From Lachnoclostridium sp. An169 (lineage in GTDB: Bacteria; Bacillota; Clostridia; Lachnospirales; Lachnospiraceae), in NCBI RefSeq assembly GCF_002160525.1, contig NZ_NFKT01000002.1:186001-250000 (forward strand): a stretch of 64,000 nt of DNA, read 5' to 3'. The notes under the pieces are model-generated. The model worked only from the letters and a program-made list of their open reading frames with translations, was not told where the DNA came from and searched no databases. Shown one piece after another: positions 31,774 through 63,737 of the stretch. Within the stretch, counting starts at the first letter, position 1. The number at the start of each line of letters is the position of its first letter. Position numbers and translations under genes: made by a program.

Positions 31774-31808
31774 ACTAACGATGTGATTGCATATAGCAGT
31801 TTCTCTTT

Positions 31809-31833
31809 GGGGGGGGGTAAAAAACCACCCCTT
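31809..31833 (+). promoter_or_regulatory. Nine-G tract and C-rich complement in the leader
   Basis: A run of nine G (31809-31817) is followed by TAAAAAA and CCACCCC, able to form a weak hairpin in the untranslated leader. Homopolymeric G tracts of this length are slippage-prone. Confidence 0.55.
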
Positions 31834-31885
31834 AAAATGTAAATTGTGGTATAAGGCACATTTTGGGCAAAGGAATGGAGAAACA

Positions 31886-33061
31886 GTGGGAAAGAGTGTT
31901 TTGATTCTGACATGTGTCAGCGGATTTATCGATAAATTTGAAAAAGAAAATGTCAGAATTCTTCGGGAACTGGGCTATGAAGTCCACTATGCATCTAATA
32001 TGAAGGAACAACACTATCTTTTCGATCCGAAAGAATACAGAGAACTCGGTGTGATCCCACATGACATCTGCGTGGAGCGGTCTCCTTTCATGGTGCGCGC
32101 CAACAGTAAGGCGCTGCGTCAGATTATCGAGATCGTTGAGCAGAACAATATTGACATCATTCACTGCCATGCCCCTGTGGGAGGCGTACTTGGACGCCTT
32201 GCAGGGAGATATTTCAGACATAAGAATCGGGATCTGAGGGTTATATATACAGCACACGGTTTTCACTTCTACAAAGGCGCTCCCCTGATTAACAACACAG
32301 TTTATAAACTTGCAGAGAAAATACTGGCACATTATACAGATGTGCTGATCACAATCAACAGAGAAGATTACGAAAGCGCAAAAAAACTGCATTTGAGAAA
32401 AGGCGGCAGAGTATACCAGCTGCCGAGCATCGGGCTGGATATGGAACGGTTCCGTCCCCTCTCCGATGAGGAGAAAAAAAGGCAGCGGAAGGAGCTCCAT
32501 GTGGAGGACAAGTTCTTTCTCGTCAGCGTGGGAGAACTCAATGAGAATAAGAACCATATAGTAGTGCTCCAGGCACTGAAGAAGATGCGGGATTCCGGGG
32601 AAGATATCTCGGGGATAGTCTACGGCATCTGCGGCGACGGATTCTTTCACGACCGTATGAGAGAGTGGATTGATGAGATGGGACTACAGGACAACGTGAG
32701 GATGTTCGGATACTGTATGGATGTCAGACCCATCGAGGGGTGCGCGGATGCGTCAGTGTTCCCGTCCCTCAGGGAGGGGCTCGGGATGGCTGCCCTCGAA
32801 GCGCTTGCAATGGGTGTGCCGCTTATCGCGTCAGATAACCGGGGTACCAGAGAGTATATGGAACATCAGAAGAACGGATATGTCTGCAACAGCAGCAGCC
32901 CGGAGAGCTTTGTCGAGGGGATCCGTTTTGTGCAGGGGCTTGAGCCGGAAGCAAGGCGCAAGATGCAGAAATACTGCAGAGAGTCAGTGATGAAGTTTGA
33001 CAAGAAATATGCCAATGAAATCATGAGGCATGTCTATCAGGAAGAGATGCGTAATGAGTGA
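31886..33061 (+). CDS. GT4-family glycosyltransferase, first gene of the glycan locus
   Basis: 391 residues from the GTG at 31886 (GGAG 5 bases upstream); the longer frame would begin before the transcription start region with TTG. GT-B fold: N-terminal YTAHGFHFYKGAP, then NENKNHIVVLQALKKM and the nucleotide-sugar site PSLREGLGMAALEALAMGVP with the ExxxxxxxE pair. It resembles CapM/EpsD-like enzymes that add an early sugar to a lipid-linked chain at the cytoplasmic membrane face. It overlaps the next gene by 8 bases. Confidence 0.9.
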   Translation: MGKSVLILTCVSGFIDKFEKENVRILRELGYEVHYASNMKEQHYLFDPKEYRELGVIPHDICVERSPFMVRANSKALRQIIEIVEQNNIDIIHCHAPVGGVLGRLAGRYFRHKNRDLRVIYTAHGFHFYKGAPLINNTVYKLAEKILAHYTDVLITINREDYESAKKLHLRKGGRVYQLPSIGLDMERFRPLSDEEKKRQRKELHVEDKFFLVSVGELNENKNHIVVLQALKKMRDSGEDISGIVYGICGDGFFHDRMREWIDEMGLQDNVRMFGYCMDVRPIEGCADASVFPSLREGLGMAALEALAMGVPLIASDNRGTREYMEHQKNGYVCNSSSPESFVEGIRFVQGLEPEARRKMQKYCRESVMKFDKKYANEIMRHVYQEEMRNE

Positions 33062-33893
33062 TGTGAAGATCAGCGTGATCATCGGGACTTACAACCCGAA
33101 GGAGGAGCAGCTGACGAAAGCGGTGCGCTCCATCATGGAACAGACGTTTACCGACTGGGAGCTGATCCTCTATGATGACGGATCGGCGCCGGAAGCCGCC
33201 GGAATTATCCGGAGAACGGCTGATCTCGACGGACGGATCCGTTGTGTGAGAAATGAGAGAAACCACGGACTTGCCTATGCTCTTGACCAGTGCATAAAGC
33301 TGTCTGCGGGAACATATATTGCCAGAATGGATGACGACGATGTTTCCCTGCCCCGGCGGTTGGAGAAGCAGGTGCGTTTTCTGGAACAGCACCCGGAATA
33401 TGACTGGGTCGGCTCAAATGCGGACCTGTTTGACGAAACCGGGATATGGCGGACAGAAACGATGCCGGAGAAGCCTGAAAAGAAAGATTTTCTCAGGTAC
33501 TCCCCTTATATCCATCCCTCGGTCATGTTCCGGAGGGAGGCGGTATGGGGCAGAAATGCCTATATTTCTGCCGGCGTTACGAGGCGCTGCGAGGACTATG
33601 AGCTCTTCATGCGGCTTCATATGCAGGGGAAGCGGGGATATAACCTGCAGGAAAGCCTGCTCTTATACCGGGAAGACCAGAACTCCTATGTAAGGAGAAG
33701 TATAGATAACAGATTGAATGAGATGCGCATCAGGTACCGCGGATTCAAGCGCATGGGAATCCTGAAGCCGTCTACAGCGGTATATGTGTTCCGCCCGCTG
33801 GCAGGCGCCGTCCTGCCGAACGGACTACTGCATAATATACTGAGGAGGAATAAGAATGGCTGTTCAGACAGATGCGAGAAAGGCCAGATTTGA
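33054..33893 (+). CDS. GT2-family glycosyltransferase
   Basis: 279 residues from the ATG at 33054, preceded by AGGAAGAG. GT-A fold: ISVIIGTYNPKEEQLTKAV, WELILYDDGS, metal-binding YIARMDDDDVSLPRRLEKQ and a C-terminal region with RRCEDYELFMRLH that serves the catalytic base. Transfers a sugar from a nucleotide donor; acceptor unknown. The end overlaps the following gene by 38 bases, a longer overlap than usual, but the downstream GGAGGAATAAGAATG start is strong. Confidence 0.9.
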   Translation: MSDVKISVIIGTYNPKEEQLTKAVRSIMEQTFTDWELILYDDGSAPEAAGIIRRTADLDGRIRCVRNERNHGLAYALDQCIKLSAGTYIARMDDDDVSLPRRLEKQVRFLEQHPEYDWVGSNADLFDETGIWRTETMPEKPEKKDFLRYSPYIHPSVMFRREAVWGRNAYISAGVTRRCEDYELFMRLHMQGKRGYNLQESLLLYREDQNSYVRRSIDNRLNEMRIRYRGFKRMGILKPSTAVYVFRPLAGAVLPNGLLHNILRRNKNGCSDRCEKGQI

Positions 33894-35241
33894 AACTTAC
33901 AGAAAATTTTTGAATAAGGAAAAGATTTACTGCCCTGCCTCGGTGCCGGAGAAGGCGGAGGATAATCCGTTTGCCGGCGCCGGCAGTTACGTGCTTGGAC
34001 CCATGGTAAATACTTTTGTGACCTGGGTCTTGCAGGAGGCATTGAAAAGTGGTAAAAAAAGGCTGCATTTTTTAGCCAGGGACGGGTATTTTATGTACAG
34101 GACGGCAAAAATCTATGTGGAGAAACTCAATCTTCCCATTGATTGCCGTTACGTGAGCTGCTCACGCTATTCCCTGCGTATTCCGATGTACCATCTGGAC
34201 GTGGAGGACGCCATGGATTACATATGCAGGGACAGTATCGATGCAACTCTGACGCGGGTGCTTAACCGCGCAGGGCTCGATATGCAGGAGCAGAAAGACG
34301 TGCTCAACGAGATCGGAGAGACGGGACATGAAAATGAACCTGTCCCTTATGTGCGTCTTGCGGAAATAAAAGAGAAACTTTACCATTCCAAAATGTTTAT
34401 GGAATATATGCTCCGTCACTCGGAGGACGCCATGCCTGCCCTGCAGGGATATCTGCGCCAGGAAGGTTTTCTGGACGGTGTGGAGGACGCCATCGTGGAC
34501 AGCGGATGGGTCGGGTCCATGCAGAAGACCCTCAACCAGATGCTCAAAAGCATGGGGAGAAAAAGCGAGCTGGAAGGATATTACTGGGGACTGTATGAAC
34601 TTCCGCCGGGTGTGCCGCGGGAAACCTATCACTGCTATTACTTCAGCCCGGAAGGACAGCTCAGCGAGAAGGTGAATTTCAACAACAATTTGTTTGAAAC
34701 CATCTTCAGCGCACCTCACGGCATGACCCTGAGGTACGAGGAAAAAGACGGAAAATACATACCGGTGTATGATTCCATCGCGCCGGAGAGAAAGCAATAT
34801 ATGGAGCAGTTGGAAACGGTACTGCTCGGTTACACAGAGAAAGCGGCGGAGAGCGTCACTGATATCAGTGCAGTCAACTGCCGCAAGGATAAGAAAGCCA
34901 TGAAGAAACTTCTGAAGCTCTTCATGGGTAACCCCACAAAAGATGAGGCGGAAGTCTACGGAACCCTTGTCTTCTGTGACGATGTGCTTGAATACGGAAG
35001 CCGTCAGCTTGCGGCAGTGATGGATGAAAAGGATCTCACGGATAACCATGTGATCAACAAGATCCTGGTAATGCTGGGAATCCGCAAGACCGAGATCAAG
35101 GAAAGCGCCTGGTACGAGGGCAGCGTGGTGCGCTGCGCCAAGAAAAGGCCAAGATACCATCTCATGCAGTATGGGATGTATAAATACCTGCTATATATAA
35201 GGCAGATGTATATGTGGAGAAGAAATAATGTCCAGAGATAA
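33856..35241 (+). CDS. FLARDG-domain protein without a HAD domain
   Basis: 461 residues, strong GGAGG start. The motif LHFLARDGYFMYRTAKIYVE (about residue 70) and the later VDSGWVGSMQKTLNQML match the C-terminal region of the 681-residue HAD protein encoded 2.8 kb downstream (LFLARDGDVLMKAYKLL, VDIGWAGSGAITLN), but the N-terminal HAD phosphatase part is absent. The family (COG5610-like) is common in glycan loci with ABC exporters and has no established reaction. Position just before the permease gene suggests a role in polymer assembly or modification. Confidence 0.75.
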   Translation: MAVQTDARKARFETYRKFLNKEKIYCPASVPEKAEDNPFAGAGSYVLGPMVNTFVTWVLQEALKSGKKRLHFLARDGYFMYRTAKIYVEKLNLPIDCRYVSCSRYSLRIPMYHLDVEDAMDYICRDSIDATLTRVLNRAGLDMQEQKDVLNEIGETGHENEPVPYVRLAEIKEKLYHSKMFMEYMLRHSEDAMPALQGYLRQEGFLDGVEDAIVDSGWVGSMQKTLNQMLKSMGRKSELEGYYWGLYELPPGVPRETYHCYYFSPEGQLSEKVNFNNNLFETIFSAPHGMTLRYEEKDGKYIPVYDSIAPERKQYMEQLETVLLGYTEKAAESVTDISAVNCRKDKKAMKKLLKLFMGNPTKDEAEVYGTLVFCDDVLEYGSRQLAAVMDEKDLTDNHVINKILVMLGIRKTEIKESAWYEGSVVRCAKKRPRYHLMQYGMYKYLLYIRQMYMWRRNNVQR

Positions 35242-36049
35242 GAAGGATAATAATATAGATAAAAAAGCAATAAGACAGGAAAAACGGGAAAACAGAAAAC
35301 AGTACTTTTTCGTAATCCGGGAACTGACGTCGAGGGAGATCAAGAGGAGGTATTCCAGGTCGTATCTGGGAATCGTCTGGAGCGTGCTCAATCCGCTGCT
35401 GATGATGTCCGTCCTCTCCATGATATTCTCGCAGCTCTTTCAGCGCTCTATTGAGAATTATCCGATCTATTATCTGTCGGGATATATTCTCTGGCAGATG
35501 TTTACCGGAGCGACCAACGCGGCGATGACTACACTGGTGGATAATAAAACATTATTGATTAAAGTGAAGCTCCCCATGGAGATATTCGTCCTTGCGAGAG
35601 TGTACACGGCGCTTGTGAATCTGGGATATTCCCTGATCGCTTATGTGATCATGCTGGTCGTGTTCCGGGTTACGCCGAAACTGACTATGCTGTTCGCGCC
35701 GGTGATTGTTCTGTTTCTGTTGATATTTGCACTGGGAATATCATTTATTCTCTCGACTGCATATGTGTTTTTTGGAGATGTAAAGCATCTGTATTCAGTC
35801 CTGCTGACACTGTGGATGTATTGCTCGGCACTGTTCTATCCGATTGACAGTATGAAGGGGATTATCCGGCAGGTTATTGAGATTAACCCGATTTTTGTGT
35901 ATATAGACTGCATGCGGAGCGTCGTCATGTACGGCGTTATCCCTCCGGCGGATGAGATCGCCCGGATGGTGGTCTGGGCGGCTGTGGCATACGCGGTCGG
36001 TTATGCCGTGTTCCGGAAGAATAAGAATCAGGTAATGCAGAAGATTTAA
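35228..36049 (+). CDS. ABC-2 polysaccharide/teichoic-acid export permease (TagG/Wzm type)
   Basis: 273 residues. A basic amphipathic N-terminus with FFVIRELTSREIKRRYSRSYLGIVWSVLNP-type gate-helix sequence, then six membrane helices and a positively charged C-terminal tail: the architecture of Wzm/KpsM/TagG permeases. It moves a lipid-linked glycan across the membrane using the ATPase encoded next. Overlap with the previous gene is 14 bases; the gap to the ATPase gene is 7 bases. Confidence 0.92.
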   Translation: MSRDKKDNNIDKKAIRQEKRENRKQYFFVIRELTSREIKRRYSRSYLGIVWSVLNPLLMMSVLSMIFSQLFQRSIENYPIYYLSGYILWQMFTGATNAAMTTLVDNKTLLIKVKLPMEIFVLARVYTALVNLGYSLIAYVIMLVVFRVTPKLTMLFAPVIVLFLLIFALGISFILSTAYVFFGDVKHLYSVLLTLWMYCSALFYPIDSMKGIIRQVIEINPIFVYIDCMRSVVMYGVIPPADEIARMVVWAAVAYAVGYAVFRKNKNQVMQKI

Positions 36050-36056
36050 GGAGCAG

Positions 36057-38054
36057 ATGAAGGTAGTTATGAAGAGGTGGATGAAAAACGTTCTGGCAGC
36101 TATGGCAATTATAGTGTCAGGATTTCTGATAAGCGATATTCATGCCGAGGCGGAAGGCGAAATTTCCAGATTCGGCTCGGAATCTTATGAGTGGGTGCAG
36201 GGTACAGAGTCACCCATCGGTGTATATGTGGAGTCTGACGAGCCCATGTCCTATGTTGATATGACACTCCAGTATGATCCGCAGATGCTCCAGTATAATT
36301 CCGGCGGTGAACTGGAAGCAGAGGGGAGAGTACGGATCAGCAGCGGGGCGGGAAATACAGAACAGTTCAGTCTGATGGTTTATTTTACTCCGCTTCGTTC
36401 GGGAACTACGCAGATCTCGATTACGAATGTGACGGTACAGTATGCGTCCGGTGAAACTTCAACAGCAACGGATGCGTCAGCGCCGATTTCCGTCCCGCTC
36501 CCGGCCGGATGCGCTCTGAGCTCCCTGACGGTAAACGGTCAGCCTGTGCCGGGGTTCAGCCCGGATGTGCTCGCGTATTCCGTGGATGTAGCCAATGATA
36601 TTGCCACAGCAAATGTAGAGGCCGTCGCGGAAGACGCTGCGTCTGCAGTGCAGGTGTCTGATACGACCCTTGCTGTGGGGATGAATACAATCAATGTAAC
36701 TGTGACAAATTCTTCCGGAAATCAGGTCACATATACAGTAACAGTGAACCGGGCGGAGCCTGTGACGAGTCTGGATCCGGTGTCGGAAGAACATCCTGGT
36801 GAGGGAGAGGTATCCGCAGAGCCAACGGTGCAGAATGCTCTCGCGAGGCTGACAAGAGGACAGATCATATTTGCGGTTGTACTGGTTGTCCTTGCGATTA
36901 TCCTTCTCCTCCTGATCGCAACTCTGATCAGGATCTCGAGAAATAAGAAGAGACATAAACGCAGACATACGGCGGCTGTGAACCGATCCAGAACCGGCGG
37001 CGTACGACAGCCTGTAAAGCGGAGAAAACCTGTGGAACGAAGGGGAGAAACAGGGCAGGCAGCTTCAGGTGCTGAAGAGGCGGAGATAAAGGCGGCCGCG
37101 TCAGAAAAGACGGAAGAAAGAAAGCGGCAGGTTCATCCCGCTGCGGCGGATAAACCGGAAGACATAAAGAAAACTGAGGAGACAACATCGGCGGGAAAAG
37201 AAACTGCAGCGGGGGCGGCGACAGGAAAAGCGGCTCCGGCAGCGGAAAAGGCAACAGCGGCAGCAACGCCTGCGGCAACGCAGGGAGCGCAGGCTGCCCC
37301 GGCGGAAGATGAACGCGAGATTGAGATTGACGTACAGCATGTTACCATGGAATTCAAGCGCGAGAAAGATGAGGCTACAAGTATCAAAGAACTGCTGATT
37401 CGTACGCTGAAAGGACAGAGGAACACAGAGAAATTCAAGGCTCTTGATGACGTAAGCTTTACCGTCCATAAGGGGGAAGTTGTCGGGATTATCGGAACGA
37501 ACGGTTCCGGAAAGAGTACGATCCTGAAGATTATCTCCGGCGTGCTTGCGCCGTCGCAGGGGAAAGTTACGGTCGACAAGAATAAGATTCAGCTTCTGAC
37601 GCTTGGAACCGGTTTTGACTACGAACTTACCGGACGTGAGAACGTATACCTGAACGGGGCGGTAATCGGTTATACAAAAGAATTTATTGATGAAAAATAC
37701 GACGATATTGTCAAGTTCGCAGAGCTGGAAGGATTCATGGAAGAAAAAGTAAGAAACTATTCTTCCGGTATGGTATCCAGACTCGGATTCGCGATTGCAA
37801 CTATCCGCGATACCCCGGAGATCCTGATTCTGGATGAGGTCTTAAGTGTCGGCGATATGTTCTTCCGCCAGAAGAGCGAGAAGAAAGTGAAGGAAATGAT
37901 GCACGGCGGTTCTACCGTACTGATCGTGTCCCATTCCACTTCTGTGATCCGGAACAACTGTACAAAGGTTGTGTGGATTGAAAAGGGACACCTGCGCATG
38001 GTAGGCGGACCAAAGGAAGTGTGCGCGGCGTATGAGAAAATGAATCAGGGTTAA
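36057..38054 (+). CDS. Fusion: extracellular cohesin/Ig-like region, membrane helix and ABC export ATPase
   Basis: 665 residues in one uninterrupted frame. Order: signal sequence (about 1-31), a cohesin-like beta domain (about 35-150, YEWVQGTESPIGVYVESDEP, MTLQYDPQMLQY), a cadherin-like/Ig-like domain (about 152-235, LSSLTVNGQPVPGFSPDVL), a membrane helix (about 269-293), a Lys/Ala/Glu-rich linker (about 295-420) and a Wzt/TagH-type ATPase with Walker A GTNGSGKST (about 480), YSSGM signature (about 568), Walker B ILILDEVLSVGD and VSHS. The ATPase is that of the adjacent permease. Wzt proteins normally have a cytoplasmic C-terminal sugar-binding domain and TagH a C-terminal outer part; here an outer region is N-terminal. 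The start could be the ATG at 36069. Confidence 0.85.
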   Translation: MKVVMKRWMKNVLAAMAIIVSGFLISDIHAEAEGEISRFGSESYEWVQGTESPIGVYVESDEPMSYVDMTLQYDPQMLQYNSGGELEAEGRVRISSGAGNTEQFSLMVYFTPLRSGTTQISITNVTVQYASGETSTATDASAPISVPLPAGCALSSLTVNGQPVPGFSPDVLAYSVDVANDIATANVEAVAEDAASAVQVSDTTLAVGMNTINVTVTNSSGNQVTYTVTVNRAEPVTSLDPVSEEHPGEGEVSAEPTVQNALARLTRGQIIFAVVLVVLAIILLLLIATLIRISRNKKRHKRRHTAAVNRSRTGGVRQPVKRRKPVERRGETGQAASGAEEAEIKAAASEKTEERKRQVHPAAADKPEDIKKTEETTSAGKETAAGAATGKAAPAAEKATAAATPAATQGAQAAPAEDEREIEIDVQHVTMEFKREKDEATSIKELLIRTLKGQRNTEKFKALDDVSFTVHKGEVVGIIGTNGSGKSTILKIISGVLAPSQGKVTVDKNKIQLLTLGTGFDYELTGRENVYLNGAVIGYTKEFIDEKYDDIVKFAELEGFMEEKVRNYSSGMVSRLGFAIATIRDTPEILILDEVLSVGDMFFRQKSEKKVKEMMHGGSTVLIVSHSTSVIRNNCTKVVWIEKGHLRMVGGPKEVCAAYEKMNQG

Positions 38055-40208: not shown

Positions 40209-41762
40209 ATGGTCCTGCAGAATATCATTTTTCCCGATGCTGTCTGTCCGATAGAGGATATCTATTTCCGGCTAAGTGGAAATGCAAAACTGAATAACGA
40301 TTCTGTCCTTCTGCCGGCGGGAAGTTCTGTAAGCACTGATACTTATATGAATGCTTTTGACCTCGGGAGCTGGTTGGAAGATACCACGGCCAAAACATTT
40401 ACTCTGACTGTTTTATTCCAGGGAAAAGGCAGATTTTTTCTCAAGTATCTGGATGGCAGAAATGGACAAACGAACGAGATGCTCCTCCTGGAAGAGGTCA
40501 TAGAATCGGCAGCAGAAACAATGGAGAAATTTCATTTTGAGATTCCGAAAAATTTATATGGCGGAACATGCTTTTGGGAAATACATGCGATCAGAGATTC
40601 GGTATTTCGGGCAGGAAGTTATTCCACAGATACCATACCGTTTCGTTCCGATATCCGTCTGGCTGTAAACATCTGCACTTTTCATCGGGAAAAACAGCTT
40701 GCAGATAATCTGAAGAAGTTTATGGACAGCGTGTTTTTTCAAAACAGTCATTTACAGGAAATTCCAGCCCGGAACAGACCAGAGAAACCATCTGCAGAAC
40801 TAAATGGATCAATGCATGTGTTTGTAATTGACAACGGTAACAGCTTCACATCAGACCCTGTACATCCAAACATCCATATCCATCCAAACTCCAATAAAGG
40901 CGGAGGAAGCGGCGGATTTACACGAGGTCTCGAAGAGATCAGGAAACTGCAGAGTACCTGCTCCTTTTCCCATGTGGTGTTTATGGACGATGATGTGGAA
41001 TTCCAGATGGAAAGCTTCTATCGGCTGTTTGCTTATCTTTCCTATCTGAAAAAAGAAAAGCAGATGACTTCCGTTGCCGGAAGAATGTTCCGGCTGGATG
41101 ACCGGAAAATCCAGTATACCGGCATAGAGATCTGGAATAAGGGGAACATCCGGCACGCAGGAGGAAATCTGGATATGAGCATCAGCCAAAACGCCATGCT
41201 CACCACTGCTCTGTCCGGAGATTACGGCGGATGGTGGTTCTGCACTTATCCGGCGGAGTTTGCTCTTGAAAACTGCCCGTTCCCATTCTTCATCCACTGT
41301 GATGATGTGGAGTACGGATTGAGATTTCCGGGACGCGTGACTGCTCTGAGGGGAGTCCAGGTCTGGCATGAGACATATGAATACCGGGTAACGCCGCGGA
41401 TCATTTATTACGATATCCGCAATCCGATGGTGGTAAATGCCCTGCATGGGCTGGAAGAAAATGCGAATGAGATGATCGAAAAGTGGCAGGAACGGTTGGA
41501 GGAATTCCATCGTGAGGGGGATCAGACACTGAAATATCTGTGCATACTGGCAATGTATCATTTTACGAAAGGATACCGTTTTTTTCAAAAAGGCGGGAAA
41601 CTGCCGGGAATGCATAACTGGATGAAAGATCGGACAGAACTGCTGAAATTTGTCAATCCTGTATTTCACAGATATGTCAGCTGGAGACTAAAAATGAAAA
41701 ACAGTTATGCGAATATACTGCATACTTACAAAATCAGAAAGGAAAAGTTGTATGGCTGTTAA
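40209..41762 (+). CDS. GlfT2-like galactofuranosyltransferase
   Basis: 517 residues. An N-terminal beta-rich domain (about 1-150) precedes a GT-A catalytic core with HPNSNKGGGSGGFTRGLEEI, metal site FMDDDVEF (about 260), GGWWFCTYP and FFIHCDDVEYGLR, then HETYEYR and a helical C-terminus. This pattern is that of GlfT2-type enzymes that polymerise galactofuranose from UDP-Galf. It fits glf (UDP-galactopyranose mutase), which lies 18 kb downstream in the same locus and makes UDP-Galf. It overlaps the next gene by 11 bases. Confidence 0.85.
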   Translation: MVLQNIIFPDAVCPIEDIYFRLSGNAKLNNDSVLLPAGSSVSTDTYMNAFDLGSWLEDTTAKTFTLTVLFQGKGRFFLKYLDGRNGQTNEMLLLEEVIESAAETMEKFHFEIPKNLYGGTCFWEIHAIRDSVFRAGSYSTDTIPFRSDIRLAVNICTFHREKQLADNLKKFMDSVFFQNSHLQEIPARNRPEKPSAELNGSMHVFVIDNGNSFTSDPVHPNIHIHPNSNKGGGSGGFTRGLEEIRKLQSTCSFSHVVFMDDDVEFQMESFYRLFAYLSYLKKEKQMTSVAGRMFRLDDRKIQYTGIEIWNKGNIRHAGGNLDMSISQNAMLTTALSGDYGGWWFCTYPAEFALENCPFPFFIHCDDVEYGLRFPGRVTALRGVQVWHETYEYRVTPRIIYYDIRNPMVVNALHGLEENANEMIEKWQERLEEFHREGDQTLKYLCILAMYHFTKGYRFFQKGGKLPGMHNWMKDRTELLKFVNPVFHRYVSWRLKMKNSYANILHTYKIRKEKLYGC

Positions 41763-43598: not shown

Positions 43599-45878
43599 GT
43601 GAATAGAACAGTTTCGGTTCTGGAAAAAAGACGCTGCACCGGATGTGCATCCTGCTTCAATAAATGCCCGGTAAATGCAATCACGATGCAGTATGACCGA
43701 GAAGGGTTTATTTATCCTGTCATAGCTGAAAAGAAGTGTGTCAACTGCGGACAATGCTTTAACGTATGTCCGGAGTTAAATACCGCATCGACCCAAAAGC
43801 TGATCCACAGTGAAGGAACCTGCTATGCCACTATGGCTGATGATGAAATCCGGGCAGTTAGTTCCTCCGGTGGAATGTTTACCCTGCTGGCGGAAAAGAT
43901 TCTTGATGATGGCGGTGTTGTTGCTGGTGCCGCATACAGCGATGACTATATGGAAGTATCACATATTATCGTTGATGGGAAAGATGGCCTAAAGAAACTA
44001 AGAGGATCAAAATATGTTCAAAGCGCAATCGGATCTGTATATAAAGATCTGCTTCAGGAGCTTAAACAGGGAAGAAAGGTTCTTTTTGTAGGATGTCCTT
44101 GTCAGGTCGCAGGGCTGTATTCTTTTCTCGGGCAGGACTGGGCGAATCTTTACACTGCAGATTTGGTATGCCACGGAGCGAATTCACTTACTGCGTACCA
44201 GTCATTTGTAAAGGAAACTGCAAAAGGACGAAAAGTAAAAGAAGTAAACTTCCGGGATAAAACAGTTTATGGGTGGTCAACACCAACCACGATCTACTTT
44301 GAAGATGGCACAGTGTTTAATGCGGCCTGGAATGAATCCAAGTGGAACGACGGATTCCTGAAAGGGATCATTAACCGACCTTGCTGCAGCACATGTCATT
44401 ATGCACAGAGAAACAGAGTGGCTGATTTAACACTTGGGGACTTCTGGCAGATTCATCGGTGGAATGAAGAATGCAATGACTGGAAGGGAACATCTCTTGT
44501 CCTTGTAAATACAGCAAAAGGAGAACAGATTTTTAATAATGTCAGCGGACGCATGAAGTTATGCCAGAAGGCACCGCTCGATTTTGCAGTACAGTATAAC
44601 GGGCAGCTGGTCCGCCCCAACCGTGCTCATCCGGGAAGAAAATTTTTCTTTCATCACCTGGAAAAAGACGGGTATCACAAATCACTCTGGTATGGACAAA
44701 AGTGGCACTATGATGTCGGCCTCGTCGGATGGTGGTTTGCTGCCAACTATGGAAGTGTTCTGACATATTATGCACTTGGAAAAATTTTGGATGATATGGA
44801 TATGCTTGCACTTATGATCCGCATTCCTAAATTAGATGGCGGAACAAAATGGGAGCCCGTTACAGAAGAAAACATTAAATTTATGGAAAAATATTTCCCG
44901 GTATCAAAAGAGCGAAGCATCGAACAGCTTGATGAATGTAATCGTTTTTGCGATGCGTTTATGTTGGGATCAGATCAATTATGGGTACAAAATTACGTTA
45001 ATTTAGTAGGATATACCTTTTTCTTAGACTTTGCAGCAGATGATAAGAAAAAAATCGCATATGCCACATCACTCGGTTATGAAAAATACCAGGGAAGTGA
45101 AGAAGAAAAATGTATTGCCAGCACATATTTAAAAAGGTTTAATGCGATATCAGTACGGGAAACCTCCGGAACAGTAATCTGTCAGGAATCTTTTGGCGTT
45201 AACGCAGTACGTATGCTGGATCCGGTTTTCTTGTGCAATATCAGTCATTACGATGAGCTGGCGCAGAATTCAACTTTAGACACCAATGAAAAATATATTC
45301 TCTGCTATATATTAGACCCTTCCGATGAAAAACGGAAGGCTGTGGAATACGTTGAAAAGAAATTAGGCATGAAGGCCAAAGTTGTTCTGGACATGAAAAC
45401 ATATGACCACAGCAAAGCAAGATGGGGAATGGATAATGTAGTAGATCGTCCGTCTATTGAAGATTTTATAAAGCTTATTAAAAATTCCAGCTTCCTTGTT
45501 TCTGATTCCCATCACGGCATCTGTTTCGGACTGATATACCATATAAACTTCATTTGTATCGCCAACAGATCCAGAGGATATACAAGGTTTGAATCGCTTT
45601 TCAATCTGCTGCGGATTCGTAAGCATATGGTAGATAATGCTGCTGAGATTATAGAAAACGATAGCTTATTTGAAAAAATCGATTACGAAATGGTTGACCA
45701 GATACTGGAACATGAGCGTGACCGCTCTCTGACCTGGCTGAAAGAGGCATTGAATTCAGACAGAAGCCCTGAGATGAATACACAGGATCAGCTTCTGGTA
45801 AATTACATGAATCATTCTCGTAAACTGGAATGGGAAAATAAACGTTTGAAAAACGAATTGCAGAAATTGAAAAAGTGA
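43599..45878 (+). CDS. Fe-S/FrhB-like domain fused to polysaccharide pyruvyl transferase (order FrhB-PPT)
   Basis: 759 residues, GTG start after AAGGGGGAAA. N-terminus: two [4Fe-4S] ferredoxin motifs (Cys13/16/19/23 and Cys47/50/53/57), then an F420 hydrogenase beta-subunit-like (FrhB) region (about 75-350) with VGCPCQVAGLYSFLG, CHG and CSTCHYAQRN...DLTLGDFW. The rest (about 368-690) is a pyruvyl-transferase domain with VGWWFAANYGSVLTYYALG, MLGSDQLW, RETSGTVICQ and SDSHHGICFGLIY. It ends in a coiled coil. A redox module and a pyruvyl transferase in one chain suggest linked modification of a glycan sugar; the FrhB partner reaction is not known for such loci. Confidence 0.88.
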   Translation: MNRTVSVLEKRRCTGCASCFNKCPVNAITMQYDREGFIYPVIAEKKCVNCGQCFNVCPELNTASTQKLIHSEGTCYATMADDEIRAVSSSGGMFTLLAEKILDDGGVVAGAAYSDDYMEVSHIIVDGKDGLKKLRGSKYVQSAIGSVYKDLLQELKQGRKVLFVGCPCQVAGLYSFLGQDWANLYTADLVCHGANSLTAYQSFVKETAKGRKVKEVNFRDKTVYGWSTPTTIYFEDGTVFNAAWNESKWNDGFLKGIINRPCCSTCHYAQRNRVADLTLGDFWQIHRWNEECNDWKGTSLVLVNTAKGEQIFNNVSGRMKLCQKAPLDFAVQYNGQLVRPNRAHPGRKFFFHHLEKDGYHKSLWYGQKWHYDVGLVGWWFAANYGSVLTYYALGKILDDMDMLALMIRIPKLDGGTKWEPVTEENIKFMEKYFPVSKERSIEQLDECNRFCDAFMLGSDQLWVQNYVNLVGYTFFLDFAADDKKKIAYATSLGYEKYQGSEEEKCIASTYLKRFNAISVRETSGTVICQESFGVNAVRMLDPVFLCNISHYDELAQNSTLDTNEKYILCYILDPSDEKRKAVEYVEKKLGMKAKVVLDMKTYDHSKARWGMDNVVDRPSIEDFIKLIKNSSFLVSDSHHGICFGLIYHINFICIANRSRGYTRFESLFNLLRIRKHMVDNAAEIIENDSLFEKIDYEMVDQILEHERDRSLTWLKEALNSDRSPEMNTQDQLLVNYMNHSRKLEWENKRLKNELQKLKK

Positions 45879-52718: not shown

Positions 52719-55412
52719 ATGAAAAAACATTATGATGTATGCATTGCCGGATTTTGGTACGGTTCAAATTATGGATCCCTGCTTAACGGATATGCTATGT
52801 ACCGAGTATTGAAAGATTACGGAAAGGAGGTGCTGATGTTACAAAAACCTGGCGCTACTGCGAATGATGAGGAAATAAAAACGGGACATAATGTACAATT
52901 CGTAAAAAAATACTATGATCCTGAAGATATCAGCCCCATATTATCGTATGACCGACTTCATGAATTAAATGATATCTGTGATTGTTTTTGCGCAGGATCC
53001 GATCAGATTTGGAACTACAATTTATCATTTCATGAAAATTTGTATCTTCCTTTTGTTCGCCCTGAGAAAAAGTTAATAAGTTTTTCGACATCCTTTGGAC
53101 ATAAGCAGGACAAAACTCCTGATGAGGCCAAACCTCGTATACGGGAATATTTTCATAGATACAATGCAATCTCTGTTAGAGAACAATTTGATGTCGACAT
53201 CTTGAAAAATAATTATGGCGTTCGCTCTACTCTATTATTTGAACCGGTATTTTGTATCGATAAAAAATATTATAACAATTTAGCGCAAAACGCAAAATTT
53301 CATGAAGAAGAGCCTTACCTTCTCACATATATTTTAGATCCGACACCGGAAAAAAGAGAAGCAATATTATATTATGGGGAAAAAAGCGGAATAAAAGTTG
53401 TAAATATGCTAAACGGCACCAAGGGAGTCTGGAAGAGAAATAGAGATAACCTTAATCTCCCCAATATTATGGAAAATGTCGAGTCTGAAGATTTTCTGAA
53501 GGCTTTCATGGGTGCCTCCTATGTAATAACAGACAGCTTTCATGGATCAGCATTCTCCATAATCTTTAATAAGCCTTTCCTTGCAATTGGTAACTATGGC
53601 AGAGGTTATGAAAGATTTATTGATTTATTGGGCAGACTAAAATTGTCAGACAGATTAGTATCTGATCCGCTTAATATACCACATGATATAAAATATCTAG
53701 AACCTATTGATTATTCAGAAACCAATGAAATAATTAGAAAAGAAGCGGAAAAAACTGTAAATTGGGTGAAAAATGCTTTGGATACTCCCGTAGAAAAAAT
53801 GGCATCTGTGCTTTTACCTGAAAAAGCTGTTACTGTACTTTTAGATAAAAATAAATGTATGGGATGTGGAGCCTGTGTCAACATTTGTCCGACGGATGCA
53901 TTGGAGCTAAAACCTGATGAAAATGGATATTATAAATCAAGCATCCAGTATGATAAATGTATTGATTGCGGAAGATGCTCCAAAATCTGTCCGGCCTTGA
54001 AAACTCCTGAAAAGGTTAATTCGCTAAAGCCTTCCTGTTATGAATTTATTGCAGAAAGTGAAAATGTACTTTCTGCAAGTTCTAGTGGTGGTGTTTTTAA
54101 GCTCTTATCAGATGAAGTATTTAGAAAGAATGGGAAAGTGGTTGGTGCTGCATGGACTGAAGATTACTCTGTAAACCATATTATTGTTGACGATCCAAAA
54201 GACATAGAAAAAATACAAAAGTCAAAATATGTCCAGAGCTATGTCGGAAAAACTTTAAGAGAAATAAAAGCGGCACTTGACAATGGAATATTTGTAATGT
54301 TTACTGGTTGTCCATGTCAAGTTGCAGGATTGAAGGCATACTTAGGAAAAGATTATACAAATTTAATTACAGTTGATCTGCTATGTTCGTATTCTCCATC
54401 GCCTGCTTTTTTCAAAAAATATTTGAAAGAAACATTTCCTGATGGAATAACCAGTTATCAGTTCCGACATAAAAATAATTTGTATGGGTGGGATTGTGTA
54501 ACAGTAAATGCAATCACCAAGGATGGGAAAAGCATTGTAAGGCATGGCGGAGTACAGGATGATTATCAACGAGCTTATCACAATCATCTTATGTGTCCTG
54601 TTCACTGTGAGGAATGCAAATATCAGTCAATACCAAGATATGGAGATATAACCATCGGAGATTTCTGGGGAATTGAAAGAAAAGATCCTGAACTTGACTC
54701 TCGAAACGGGGTATCCGCAGTATTATGTAATACCGAAAAAGGAAAAGATTTTCTTTTATCCATACCTGCCGAAAAGATCAAAGTTATGAAAGAGGTTCCA
54801 TTGACTTGGCTTGGAGGAAATGGTTTTACAAAACCAGGAAGCAAAAATTATAGTTCACCAGCGAGAAACACTTTTTACAGAGCAATAAAAACCATGCCAT
54901 TTTCAAAAGCCGTTAATTATGCTTTGAAGCCTAACCATGGTCAGTACAATAATATCTATGATGAAACTAATTCGCTTTTACTATATGATACAGCATCACT
55001 CCATTTTAAATTTGAAGATACTGTATGGGAAGAACACTTTATGGATGGAGCTACTGTTTTGAGAGTGAAAAATAATATGTCCAAACCAGGGAACTTTGCT
55101 GTACTTCCATTAAATCGATTACTTGATAGTAATAAAAAATACACGCTAAAAATTAAATTTAAAGTTAATACAGAAGCTAAAAGTATCAATTTCCACGTTA
55201 AAGATTCAGGAAGCAATTATTACCAAATTGTTCATACCTATAAAATGCCTACGGAATCTAACATATCAGACTGGATTGTAGTCAGTAAAGACTTTCGTCC
55301 CAACTCTGACATTTACGATGAATTTATGATAGGAGCTTCGCAAATAAAAGGAGAACTAAACTTTTTGGCAATAAAGTATATAAATATTATTGAATGTGAT
55401 TCAATGAAATAG
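52719..55412 (+). CDS. Polysaccharide pyruvyl transferase fused to Fe-S/FrhB-like domain (order PPT-FrhB) with C-terminal beta domain
   Basis: 897 residues, GAGGAG start. Residues 1-350: pyruvyl transferase (CIAGFWYGSNYGSLLNGYAM, CAGSDQIWNYN, REQFDVDILK, TDSFHGSAFSIIF). About 374-415: two [4Fe-4S] motifs (CMGCGACVNICP, CIDCGRCSKICP). About 430-710: FrhB-like (FTGCPCQVAGLKAYLG, HCEECKYQSIPRYGDITIGD). About 745-897: a beta-sandwich, CBM-like (LRVKNNMSKPGNFAVLPLN). It has the same two modules as the 43599 gene in reverse order. Probably acts on another sugar of the same glycan. AT-rich. Confidence 0.87.
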   Translation: MKKHYDVCIAGFWYGSNYGSLLNGYAMYRVLKDYGKEVLMLQKPGATANDEEIKTGHNVQFVKKYYDPEDISPILSYDRLHELNDICDCFCAGSDQIWNYNLSFHENLYLPFVRPEKKLISFSTSFGHKQDKTPDEAKPRIREYFHRYNAISVREQFDVDILKNNYGVRSTLLFEPVFCIDKKYYNNLAQNAKFHEEEPYLLTYILDPTPEKREAILYYGEKSGIKVVNMLNGTKGVWKRNRDNLNLPNIMENVESEDFLKAFMGASYVITDSFHGSAFSIIFNKPFLAIGNYGRGYERFIDLLGRLKLSDRLVSDPLNIPHDIKYLEPIDYSETNEIIRKEAEKTVNWVKNALDTPVEKMASVLLPEKAVTVLLDKNKCMGCGACVNICPTDALELKPDENGYYKSSIQYDKCIDCGRCSKICPALKTPEKVNSLKPSCYEFIAESENVLSASSSGGVFKLLSDEVFRKNGKVVGAAWTEDYSVNHIIVDDPKDIEKIQKSKYVQSYVGKTLREIKAALDNGIFVMFTGCPCQVAGLKAYLGKDYTNLITVDLLCSYSPSPAFFKKYLKETFPDGITSYQFRHKNNLYGWDCVTVNAITKDGKSIVRHGGVQDDYQRAYHNHLMCPVHCEECKYQSIPRYGDITIGDFWGIERKDPELDSRNGVSAVLCNTEKGKDFLLSIPAEKIKVMKEVPLTWLGGNGFTKPGSKNYSSPARNTFYRAIKTMPFSKAVNYALKPNHGQYNNIYDETNSLLLYDTASLHFKFEDTVWEEHFMDGATVLRVKNNMSKPGNFAVLPLNRLLDSNKKYTLKIKFKVNTEAKSINFHVKDSGSNYYQIVHTYKMPTESNISDWIVVSKDFRPNSDIYDEFMIGASQIKGELNFLAIKYINIIECDSMK

Positions 55413-59807: not shown

Positions 59808-60908
59808 ATGAAATACAACTACCTCATCGTCGGCGCCGGTCTCTTCGGATCGGTCTTCGCCTACGAAGCAAAGAAAAAGGGAAAGACATGCCTTGTCATT
59901 GACAAGCGCGACCATATCGCAGGAAATATCTACTGCGAGGAAATCGAGGGCATCAACGTACACAAGTACGGTGCTCATATCTTCCACACATCCAATAAAA
60001 AAGTGTGGGACTACATCAACCAGTTTGCGGAATTTAACAATTACATCAACTCCCCGGTTGCTGTTTACAAAGACGAGCTTTATAACCTGCCGTTCAATAT
60101 GAACACCTTCAGCAAGATGTGGGGAATCCGCACGCCGCAGGAGGCGAAAGAAATTATTCAGAAGCAGATCGCAGAGCTGAATATCACCGAGCCGAAAAAC
60201 CTGGAGGAGCAGGCGCTCTCCCTTGCGGGAACGGATGTATACGAGAAACTGATCAAAGGTTACACAGAGAAACAGTGGGGACGTCCATGTACAGAGCTTC
60301 CGTCCTTTATCATCAAGAGGCTTCCATTCCGGTTCATTTATGACAATAACTATTTTAATGACCGTTATCAGGGGATCCCCATGGGCGGATATACAAAGAT
60401 TGTCGAAAAAATGCTGGACGGAATCGACGTAAAGACAAATACCGATTACTTTGAATTCATAAAAGAGAACCCGGATATTGCGGAAAAGACCGTATTTACC
60501 GGGATGATTGACGAGTATTTCGGATATAAACTGGGAGCCCTCGAGTACCGCTCCGTACGTTTTGAGACAGAGGTTCTCGACACCGATAACTATCAGGGAA
60601 ATGCGGTTGTAAACTACACGGACCGTGAAGTTCCGTATACCAGAATTATCGAGCATAAGCATTTCGAGTTTGGCAAGCAGGAAAAAACGGTCATCTCACG
60701 TGAATACTCTTCTGAGTGGCACCAGGGAATGGAGCCTTATTATCCGGTAAACGATGATAAGAACAATACCCTTTTTGATGAATACCGGAAACTGGCTGAT
60801 CAGGAGAAAGATGTGATCTTCGGCGGAAGACTTGGAAATTATAAGTATTACGACATGGATAAGGTGATCGAAGCAGCTCTTGAAGTATGCGAAAAGGAAC
60901 TTGTATAA
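59808..60908 (+). CDS. glf: UDP-galactopyranose mutase
   Basis: 366 residues, AAAAGGAG start. FAD-binding GAGLFGSVFAYEAKKKGKTC, DKRDHIAGN, INVHKYGAHIFHTSNKKVW, NTFSKMWG, KGYTEKQWGR and the late FGGRLGNYKYYDMDKV: all family marks, full length. It makes UDP-galactofuranose from UDP-galactopyranose in the cytoplasm, feeding the GlfT2-like transferase encoded at 40.2 kb. Base composition returns to the GC level of the early part of the locus. Followed after 33 bases by a nucleotidyltransferase gene. Confidence 0.97.
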   Translation: MKYNYLIVGAGLFGSVFAYEAKKKGKTCLVIDKRDHIAGNIYCEEIEGINVHKYGAHIFHTSNKKVWDYINQFAEFNNYINSPVAVYKDELYNLPFNMNTFSKMWGIRTPQEAKEIIQKQIAELNITEPKNLEEQALSLAGTDVYEKLIKGYTEKQWGRPCTELPSFIIKRLPFRFIYDNNYFNDRYQGIPMGGYTKIVEKMLDGIDVKTNTDYFEFIKENPDIAEKTVFTGMIDEYFGYKLGALEYRSVRFETEVLDTDNYQGNAVVNYTDREVPYTRIIEHKHFEFGKQEKTVISREYSSEWHQGMEPYYPVNDDKNNTLFDEYRKLADQEKDVIFGGRLGNYKYYDMDKVIEAALEVCEKELV

Positions 60909-62537: not shown

Positions 62538-63737
62538 ATGAAAATCGAAACAATCTGTAATTCATTGTTAGAAACTCTCATTCAAGCCGGTTATAATGAG
62601 AACACAATTTTCAACTACAGAGGTATCATCCGCAGGTTTAAAGCTTTTTGCAAAGAAAAAGAAGCCTTCGAGTATACCCCAGAACTCGGGCAATCCTATG
62701 CGGATGACGTAATCAGCAAAAAAACAGGGAAGTTCAGCAAACAGCGTTATTTCTCACAGGGAAGGTTTGCAAGATTGTTGACGTCCTATTACTACACTGG
62801 CTCTTTCGACCTTTCTGTGATGAAACGCGGAAGGAAAGAGCCAGAAAATAAAAACCTGAACAAACTGTATTATGAGTATGGTTCTTATTTGAGAAAAAAG
62901 TATTCCAACGAGAATACGGTAAGGTTCTATGATTATGAAGTCTTCTGTTTTTTTCAGTATCTGGATTTCATCCAGATATACGAACTGAGGGAAATCTCGG
63001 CTGCCACTATCGTGGATTATCTCAGAACGATGAAACAGAGCAGGCAGCGCGCAGTCCTCTGTGGGCTCAGGCTCTATTTTACTTTCATAGGACGTACAGA
63101 TCTTTTTGCGGTCATCGATGGTATGCACGCTTACAGGCCCAAAAAAATCATTCCTGTGTTGACTGATGACGAGAAAGACAGACTTCGTGATACGATCGAA
63201 TCCGGAGTTATCAGCAACAGAGACGCAGCTATCGTTCCTCTTGGGCTTTCGACAGGTATAAGGGCGATAGACTTGATAAACTTGCGACTTTCAAACATTG
63301 ACTGGAACCTCGAAACAATCTCATTTAAGCAATCAAAGACAGGTAATCTTGTAAATATCCCCCTTACATTGGCAGTAGGAAATGCCATTGCAAGATACCT
63401 TTACGAAGAGAGACCGAAGGTCGACAATGATTACCTTTTCGTAAGGGCTTTGGCACCCTTTGATCCTTTGGCAGGCCATACATCTTGTTATGCCATTGTC
63501 AAAAATGCCTTTAAGAAGGCGGATATCAGCAAAGATGCTCGTATCTTCGGTATGCATATGCTCCGCCATAATGCTGCATCGACGATGGTAAAAAATGAAG
63601 TCCCAATATCAACGATTTCTGCCATCCTCGGCCATGCCAGCACAGATACAACCGATGTCTATATAACAACCGATGCGGTCAGACTCAGAGAATGCGTCCT
63701 CCCCATGACGGGCATTTCTAAGGAGGTGAACGCATGA
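62538..63737 (+). CDS. Tyrosine recombinase (integrase), first of the element
   Basis: 399 residues. N-terminal SAM-like DNA-binding domains (about 1-200); catalytic domain with Arg in LSTGIRAIDLINLRLS, Lys-bearing KQSKTGNLVNIPL, HMLRHNAASTM (H-x-x-R), LGHASTDTTDVYI (His and Tyr nucleophile). It cuts and joins DNA through a phosphotyrosine. ATGA overlap with the next recombinase gene shows coupled expression, as in recombinase-in-trio and Tn554-like elements. The ribosome-binding site is in a hairpin. Confidence 0.93.
   Translation: MKIETICNSLLETLIQAGYNENTIFNYRGIIRRFKAFCKEKEAFEYTPELGQSYADDVISKKTGKFSKQRYFSQGRFARLLTSYYYTGSFDLSVMKRGRKEPENKNLNKLYYEYGSYLRKKYSNENTVRFYDYEVFCFFQYLDFIQIYELREISAATIVDYLRTMKQSRQRAVLCGLRLYFTFIGRTDLFAVIDGMHAYRPKKIIPVLTDDEKDRLRDTIESGVISNRDAAIVPLGLSTGIRAIDLINLRLSNIDWNLETISFKQSKTGNLVNIPLTLAVGNAIARYLYEERPKVDNDYLFVRALAPFDPLAGHTSCYAIVKNAFKKADISKDARIFGMHMLRHNAASTMVKNEVPISTISAILGHASTDTTDVYITTDAVRLRECVLPMTGISKEVNA

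Follow-up and report, generated by a model that had tools for sequence, protein, structure and literature searches.

What would an ATP-binding cassette (ABC) exporter gain from displaying a cohesin-like domain outside the cell on the same chain as its ATPase? The question is raised by a gene of Lachnoclostridium sp. An169 at 36057-38054 of a 64,000-nucleotide stretch of contig NZ_NFKT01000002.1 (positions 186,001 to 250,000; hereafter the window, in which the exporter, glycosyltransferase and mutase frames given below lie on the forward strand). The gene is a single ATG frame of 665 amino acids with zero internal stops, and the frame of its partner, an ABC-2 permease of 273 amino acids (35228-36049), ends 7 bases upstream of it. 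From its N-terminus the predicted protein comprises a signal peptide (about residues 1-30, 36057-36146) with a basic start, a hydrophobic core and a small-residue end; a cohesin-fold outer domain (about residues 34-147, 36156-36497); a cadherin-like beta sandwich (residues 154-232, 36516-36752); an acidic stalk ahead of the membrane (residues 233-269, 36753-36863), apparent in the sequence and in the low predicted local distance difference test score (pLDDT) of residues ~241-270; a membrane helix (residues 270-288, 36864-36920; hydropathy 3.7, model helix 267-309); a charged low-complexity linker of 128-132 residues, predicted to be cytoplasmic (residues 289-422, 36921-37322; 34% charged, 8% hydrophobic); and a Wzt/TagH-type ATPase (residues 423-665 and stop, 37323-38054), recognized by Pfam, NCBIfam and structure matches and by its motif residues. 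The signal peptide region has a hydrophobic segment at residues 8-26 and a helix at 7-25 in an AlphaFold2 model, and most aligned relatives start alike. Because the first 25 residues after the membrane helix contain 10 K/R and no D/E, the C-terminus is predicted to lie inside, giving an N-out/C-in topology. A preliminary description of the window had proposed this single frame, from signal sequence to complete ATPase beside a permease, with its N-terminal region outside; frame and domain scans agree with the first proposal, and the signal peptide and the charges behind the helix speak for the second.

How securely can the outer domains be named? The AlphaFold2 model, which covers residues 1-310 and was built with 31 sequences, has a mean pLDDT of 89, with values mostly of 96-98 across both beta domains. 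When the model is compared with the PDB by Foldseek, cohesins rank first (2w1n, 2vo8, 2jh2), 2vo8 giving a TM-score of 0.74 by target length and a root-mean-square deviation of 2.2. The cohesin-like and cadherin-like folds of the preliminary description are thus borne out by a structure prediction that is confident for both. An in-house cohesin family profile, in which the window row is itself included, matches the first outer domain at 3.6e-37. The Pfam cohesin family PF00963 has no match in the window protein at E <= 0.1, so that the name rests on the fold: in the model, the first outer domain is a cohesin as a fold. PF00963 matches below its cut-off in four of ten relatives scanned (L160, L172, L173 and L174; we label loci L and genomes G, the window's own genome being G000). 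The second domain matches the Cadherin-like family PF12733 at 39.3 bits (cut-off 24.2). Among nine fused ATPases scanned, this family passes the cut-off only in the window protein and in L066 (24.4 bits); of the eight relatives, L070 and L074 match below the cut-off and five have no listed match. We conclude from this pattern that the constant outer part is the cohesin and not the cohesin and cadherin-like pair. A sequence search of G000 with the N-terminal part at E <= 1e-5 returned only the self-match and no second copy.

The rest of the system is more familiar. ABC_tran matches residues 463-595 (79.1 bits, 6.1e-22), and the residues that we take to form the Walker A, signature, Walker B and H-loop motifs are invariant across 27 ATPase rows. 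The closest solved structures are 6amx and 6m96, which we take to be polysaccharide exporters, and TarH 6jbh. The top curated models are those for teichoic-acid-export ATPases and galactan Wzt, all matched far below their own cut-offs; the TagH equivalog NF010066 of NCBIfam scores 183.6 bits against a cut-off of 320, which leaves the protein outside that family. The permease matches PF01061 (ABC2_membrane) at 3.6e-19, and the galactan Wzm model falls under its cut-off. Since the frame stops at the end of the ATPase, neither a TagH-type C-terminal helix and outer domain nor a Wzt-type C-terminal domain follows it. Judged by sequence, the ATPase and the adjoining ABC-2 permease fit a Wzm/Wzt-class (type V, ABC-2) polysaccharide exporter. 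G000 holds 108 ATPase matches, and the 107 besides the window's own have 22-55% identity to it.

Could the long frame be an accident, a frameshift or an assembly join of two genes? This is ruled out, because the order cohesin, helix, linker, ATPase recurs in 17 other genomes or records, for a total of 18, all from Lachnospiraceae (G000, G183, G378, G021, G141, G078, G361, G173, G364, G405, G309, the L070 record, G726, G599, G666, G762, G765 and G766); as the genomes were samples, 18 is a lower bound. The fused frame of G364, as called, has no signal peptide. Matches to the N-terminal 310 residues occur in 27/58 genus and 167/397 family genomes, many of the family matches covering the cadherin-like part only, and loci L011-L065 (n = 55) divide into 50 free-standing cohesin proteins and five fused ATPases. 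Searches with the ATPase found matches in 20/58 genus and 226/397 family genomes at E <= 1e-60, and in 15 of 392 order genomes at E <= 1e-85. A chosen set of 48 ATPases was labelled: 12 have the cohesin module, eight a helix and linker only, two a linker only, 21 are bare and five have a C-terminal extension. The order search contributed six further cohesin-bearing ATPases; it also found a single genome outside the family, G501, with an ATPase this close, and that ATPase is free. Within the samples searched, then, the fused architecture is, by its sequence, conserved within Lachnospiraceae.

Did the outer part join the ATPase once or many times? In a tree of the 48 ATPases all 12 cohesin-bearing rows fall within one group of 37 (support 100/100), intermixed with helix-only and free rows; the cohesin label changes 11 times on this tree, and at least seven changes are forced by well-supported branches alone. 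A tree of the cohesins themselves has 53 rows, 19 exporter-borne and 34 free-standing (9 of the 26 genus rows, 24 family rows and L193). Here 17 of the 19 exporter-borne cohesins group with one free-standing protein, L064 (91/85, not among the best-supported branches). Cohesin and ATPase identities are correlated (Mantel r 0.68, n = 18), a value reached in none of 2000 permutations. A single clade of all 19 fused cohesins is not rejected by the approximately unbiased test (p-AU 0.09), and a clade of the 19 plus L064, a group named after the tree was seen, has a p-AU of 0.39. Because most exporter-borne cohesins fall together in the tree and vary in step with their ATPases, our analysis suggests a single old fusion, inherited with the ATPase, from which the outer part has repeatedly been lost, where we infer loss rather than gain. 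Separate acquisition in each lineage is not favoured, given this tracking and the p-AU values. G173 and G765 sit as a pair elsewhere, on a long branch, so that a second fusion origin is possible. In one clear case the tether seems to have been kept after the outer part had gone: the helix and linker of the helix-only G426 match those of the cohesin-bearing G405 with a score of 132 (z 14.4, equalled in none of 200 shuffles). Five other helix-only proteins reach best-of-twelve z values of 4.0-4.8 and G160 reaches 1.3; G037 was excluded from this comparison as a near copy of G022.

A different arrangement occurs in G099 (L174, a 3.9 kb contig). Here a linker of 92 residues precedes the ATPase, no helix is present on that chain, and the permease frame, of 614 residues, opens with a signal peptide, a cohesin and a helix. 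In the cohesin tree this permease-borne domain joins the exporter-borne L251, L249 and L250 (95/92), on a long branch that makes the placement less sure. In this one draft genome the outer module seems to have shifted from ATPase to permease, and because it does so, presence of the outer part at the exporter, whichever chain bears it, seems to be the trait that persists. Among the permease frames longer than 400 residues inspected from the family permease search there is no second permease-borne cohesin. In the ATPase-borne proteins the linker between helix and ATPase varies widely, spanning 45-198 residues when its start is defined in one way (12 fused proteins) and 43-195 residues, 34-53% of them charged, when it is defined in another (11 fused proteins). 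The parts also change at different rates. In a pairwise comparison of 11 fused exporters and their permeases (55 pairs), median identities are 0.68 (ATPase), 0.54 (permease) and 0.32 (cohesin), with identity correlations of 0.92 between ATPase and permease, 0.72 between cohesin and ATPase and 0.60 between cohesin and permease. The cohesin is the fastest-changing of the three, as would be expected if it were in contact with a variable ligand.

What might the outer part do? Hints come from free-standing Lachnospiraceae proteins (L011-L036, most of L039-L065, and L193), which share with the window protein a homologous cohesin, a helix, a charged cytoplasmic tail and sometimes a cadherin-like domain. 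They differ in having no ATPase, in that most carry a domain of ~165 residues before the helix, and in the conserved end of the tail in the genus rows. The ~165-residue domain, which bears no family name, lies between cohesin and helix in L193, L011-L036 and most of L039-L063, and has no match at E <= 1 in the fused exporters among the loci gathered when it was searched. The tail ends in D-Y/F-x-x-D/N/S-F-I/V-D-L/I/V in 25 of the 26 genus rows, the one exception extending beyond its locus, and similarly in about 10 of 24 family rows. A DNA pattern for the last tail residues and stop occurs once in G000, at the L193:1315-2880 gene. The linkers of the G405 and G099 ATPases contain tail-like stretches; by eye, the motif is not seen in the linker of the window ATPase. 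Taking as upstream neighbour the longest same-strand frame within the fetched flank, we find an LCP ligase gene upstream of the free-standing cohesin in 19 of 22 genus rows scanned, and in none of 13 family rows nor L193; the scan omitted L017, L026 and L034, with short upstream frames, as well as L020, a near copy. With a profile made from 18 of the LCP rows, LCP is found in 20/26 genus loci, L020 included. In G000 the frame ahead of the free-standing cohesin, in a cluster holding Wzy, MBOAT, AlgX-like and Core-2 genes, has 13 helices and no Pfam match and may be flippase-like; the free-standing cohesin of L064 precedes a CpsB/CapC gene. It is from these neighbours that the tie to wall-glycan assembly comes.

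We tentatively favour, with a little under half of our belief, protein-partner docking or, more loosely, a tethered outer receptor at the exporter. The signal peptide would export the N-terminus, the helix would anchor it, and the cohesin-fold domain would be positioned immediately outside the pore. Each exporter, having two ATPases, would presumably bear two such domains. The long and apparently flexible linker would act as a tether rather than a lever, keeping the outer domain at the exporter, where it could hold a partner in outer-face assembly, such as a ligase of the LCP type or a different wall-glycan enzyme, or else the chain as it emerges. Export and attachment of the glycan might thereby take place at one site. 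That the outer part docks a partner, and what kind of partner this would be, we infer from the pattern as a whole. In G378 an LCP gene overlaps the start of the fused exporter's permease by 4 bases.

Several observations weigh against this reading. The outer part is spread over the ATPase tree with no more clustering than random labels would show (336 of 500 shuffles are as low); with the 11 label changes, this means that the outer part is, by the tree, gained or lost very easily, and, since helix-only and free relatives manage without it, the outer domain is dispensable. The rapid change of the cohesin may also reflect weak constraint. LCP genes are not enriched near the exporters, being found near 3/12 fused and 0/8 helix-only exporters and in 5/18 other exporter regions (the regions spanned 5-64 kb, in most cases 20 kb, and the profile represents one LCP subfamily); three of the five LCP-positive other regions belong to exporters outside the ATPase clade of 37. 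None was found in the 64-kb window. Finally, the LCP synteny of the genus is probably one inherited arrangement and not 19 events.

A bolder extension of the docking reading, which we think unlikely as it stands, would make cohesin-plus-helix proteins a general outer-face docking subunit of Lachnospiraceae glycan assembly. They would work separately near LCP and Wzy, recruiting through the tail D-Y/F-x-x-D/N-F-I/V-D-L, and would be fused permanently in the ABC route, first to the ATPase and once moved to the permease, and lost where unneeded. If so, the rapid change of the outer face would reflect a fit to the glycan or ligase of each individual strain.

Alternatively, the main role of the outer domains may be to bind the glycan directly where it leaves the pore, either holding or ratcheting the chain or recognizing a modification of it, as an outer counterpart of the carbohydrate-binding domain of Wzt. 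We regard this as doubtful rather than improbable. Its weakness is that the closest folds are cohesins, which are protein-binding modules; however, the modelled folds are beta sandwiches, the cohesin is the part that changes fastest, and the clade varies in its accessory parts, including repeats in G447 that come near the cut-off of a choline-binding repeat. Moreover, PMC11466899 likens the outer domain of TagH to wall-polymer-binding SH3b domains.

It is improbable that the cohesin docks dockerin-bearing secreted proteins in the manner of a cellulosome, as the cohesin fold might lead one to expect. At E <= 0.01 the dockerin family PF00404 was found in 2 of 11 ATPase-fused genomes and in 10 of 23 other genomes searched (the genome of the L070 record and six fused genomes found later were left out), so that a dockerin partner, suggested in the preliminary description, is not supported as a general rule; nine of the 11 have none. 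The single dockerin over threshold in G000 (L192, G000:C88:24538-24702) would supply one partner, yet it lies in a 2987-residue frame on another contig. In favour, six of 13 family loci have a dockerin above cut-off in the frame upstream of the free-standing cohesin (L039, L040, L042, L049, L053 and L054), and in L041 and L051 one falls below the cut-off. As an observation in its own right, the upstream frames of L039-L042, L049, L051, L053 and L054 bear a dockerin together with a cadherin-like domain and are candidates for non-cellulosomal cohesin-dockerin pairs.

We give as little weight to a general surface or wall anchor whose role would be to bring the exporter to, for instance, the septum, with no involvement of polymer or ligase: helix-only relatives suggest some value in membrane tethering alone, but the permease presumably already holds the ATPase, and the free-standing relatives sit in glycan loci. 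Least probable of all is a sensory role, in which binding on the outside would be passed on to ATP hydrolysis, the mechanism first put forward for this gene, since the one chain that spans outer domain and ATPase is interrupted by long, variable, charged linkers of 43-198 residues, relatives lacking the outer part keep helix, linker and ATPase with its motifs, and the permease-borne module of G099 leaves an ATPase with neither helix nor outer part.

What does the exporter carry? Two glycosyltransferases, GT4-like and GT2 by domain scan, lie upstream of it (31787-33893). Downstream are a weak GlfT2-like glycosyltransferase (40209-41762; Glft2_N 9e-05, 22.9 bits, below the cut-off of 26.1) and a UDP-galactopyranose mutase (59808-60908; PF03275, 6.9e-86), which suggests galactofuranose in the exported polymer; pyruvyl transferase domains complete the cluster. 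Because of these neighbours we predict a lipid-linked surface glycan as cargo, probably containing galactofuranose and perhaps pyruvylated. In two frames, 43599-45878 and 52719-55412, polysaccharide pyruvyl transferase is fused with F420 hydrogenase beta-type iron-sulphur domains, in opposite orders. A phage-type integrase (62538-63737) stands behind the glycan genes close to the window end, and no RNA families were detected in the 64-kb window.

Related exporters carry other additions. A second, unrelated class of permeases, 30-38% identical to that of the window and found in 10 Lachnospiraceae genomes (L164:2416-3867, L286-L290, L292-L295), starts with a helix that leads into an outer region of ~130-170 residues, followed by another helix (recognized by hydropathy in nine of the ten) and the ABC-2 core; the cohesin profile does not match them, and in four scanned the outer region has no Pfam family over cut-off. 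An eleventh long permease frame, in G245, has no such extension. By this comparison, glycan exporters have acquired outer parts on more than one occasion. In the clade of the window ATPase, two ATPases (L176:4303-5379, L177:4457-5599) have C-terminal repeats without a helix, apparently intracellular, those of L177 (G447) matching Choline_bind_4 slightly below the cut-off. More distant ATPases (L164-L170, ~46-54% identity) have putative C-terminal enzyme fusions, their identities read from sequence: UDP-galactopyranose mutase (L165, L166, L167, L170), nucleotidyl- and phosphotransferase (L168, L169) and pyruvyl transferase (L164).

In Gram-positive cells it is still an open question how wall-glycan export is linked to attachment outside the cell. 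An outer module joined covalently to an exporter offers a handle on it, both as a bait domain and through natural pairs with and without the module; indeed the layout of a mutant with the outer part deleted and the motor kept is already seen in several natural relatives. Since a genetic toolkit for M. gnavus exists, as the part of PMC13121745 consulted reports, tests in this bacterial group look feasible.

How does this architecture compare with known systems? No description of a cohesin-bearing ABC ATPase came to light in the literature searched, domain-architecture databases lying outside the search, in line with the preliminary description, which knew of no example. Non-cellulosomal cohesins of Clostridium perfringens glycoside hydrolases (2vo8, 2w1n, 2jh2) have the fold of the first outer domain; they belong to secreted enzymes, whereas the window cohesin belongs to an exporter, in genomes mostly without a dockerin match. 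The carbohydrate-binding domain of Wzt is C-terminal and intracellular. A Wzt with this domain and the window protein share the ATPase class, but the extra domains of the window protein are predicted to lie outside and none follows the ATPase. For the O-antigen exporter, the accounts cited, in the parts relied on here, have the accessory domain on the Wzt ATPase recognize O-antigen modifications (PMC11466899, PMC9445017). The nearest described case is TagGH, the wall teichoic acid exporter of Bacillus subtilis, which belongs to the same type V class. According to the relevant passages of PMC11466899, the TagH chain runs from the ATPase through one membrane helix to a C-terminal, SH3b-like outer domain on a flexible linker. 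The window frame mirrors this order, as had been proposed from the sequence, in that it ends with the ATPase and its outer part is N-terminal, preceded by a signal peptide, and cohesin- and cadherin-like. By this analogy, the fused exporters look like the task of TagH solved from the opposite end of the chain, with other domains.

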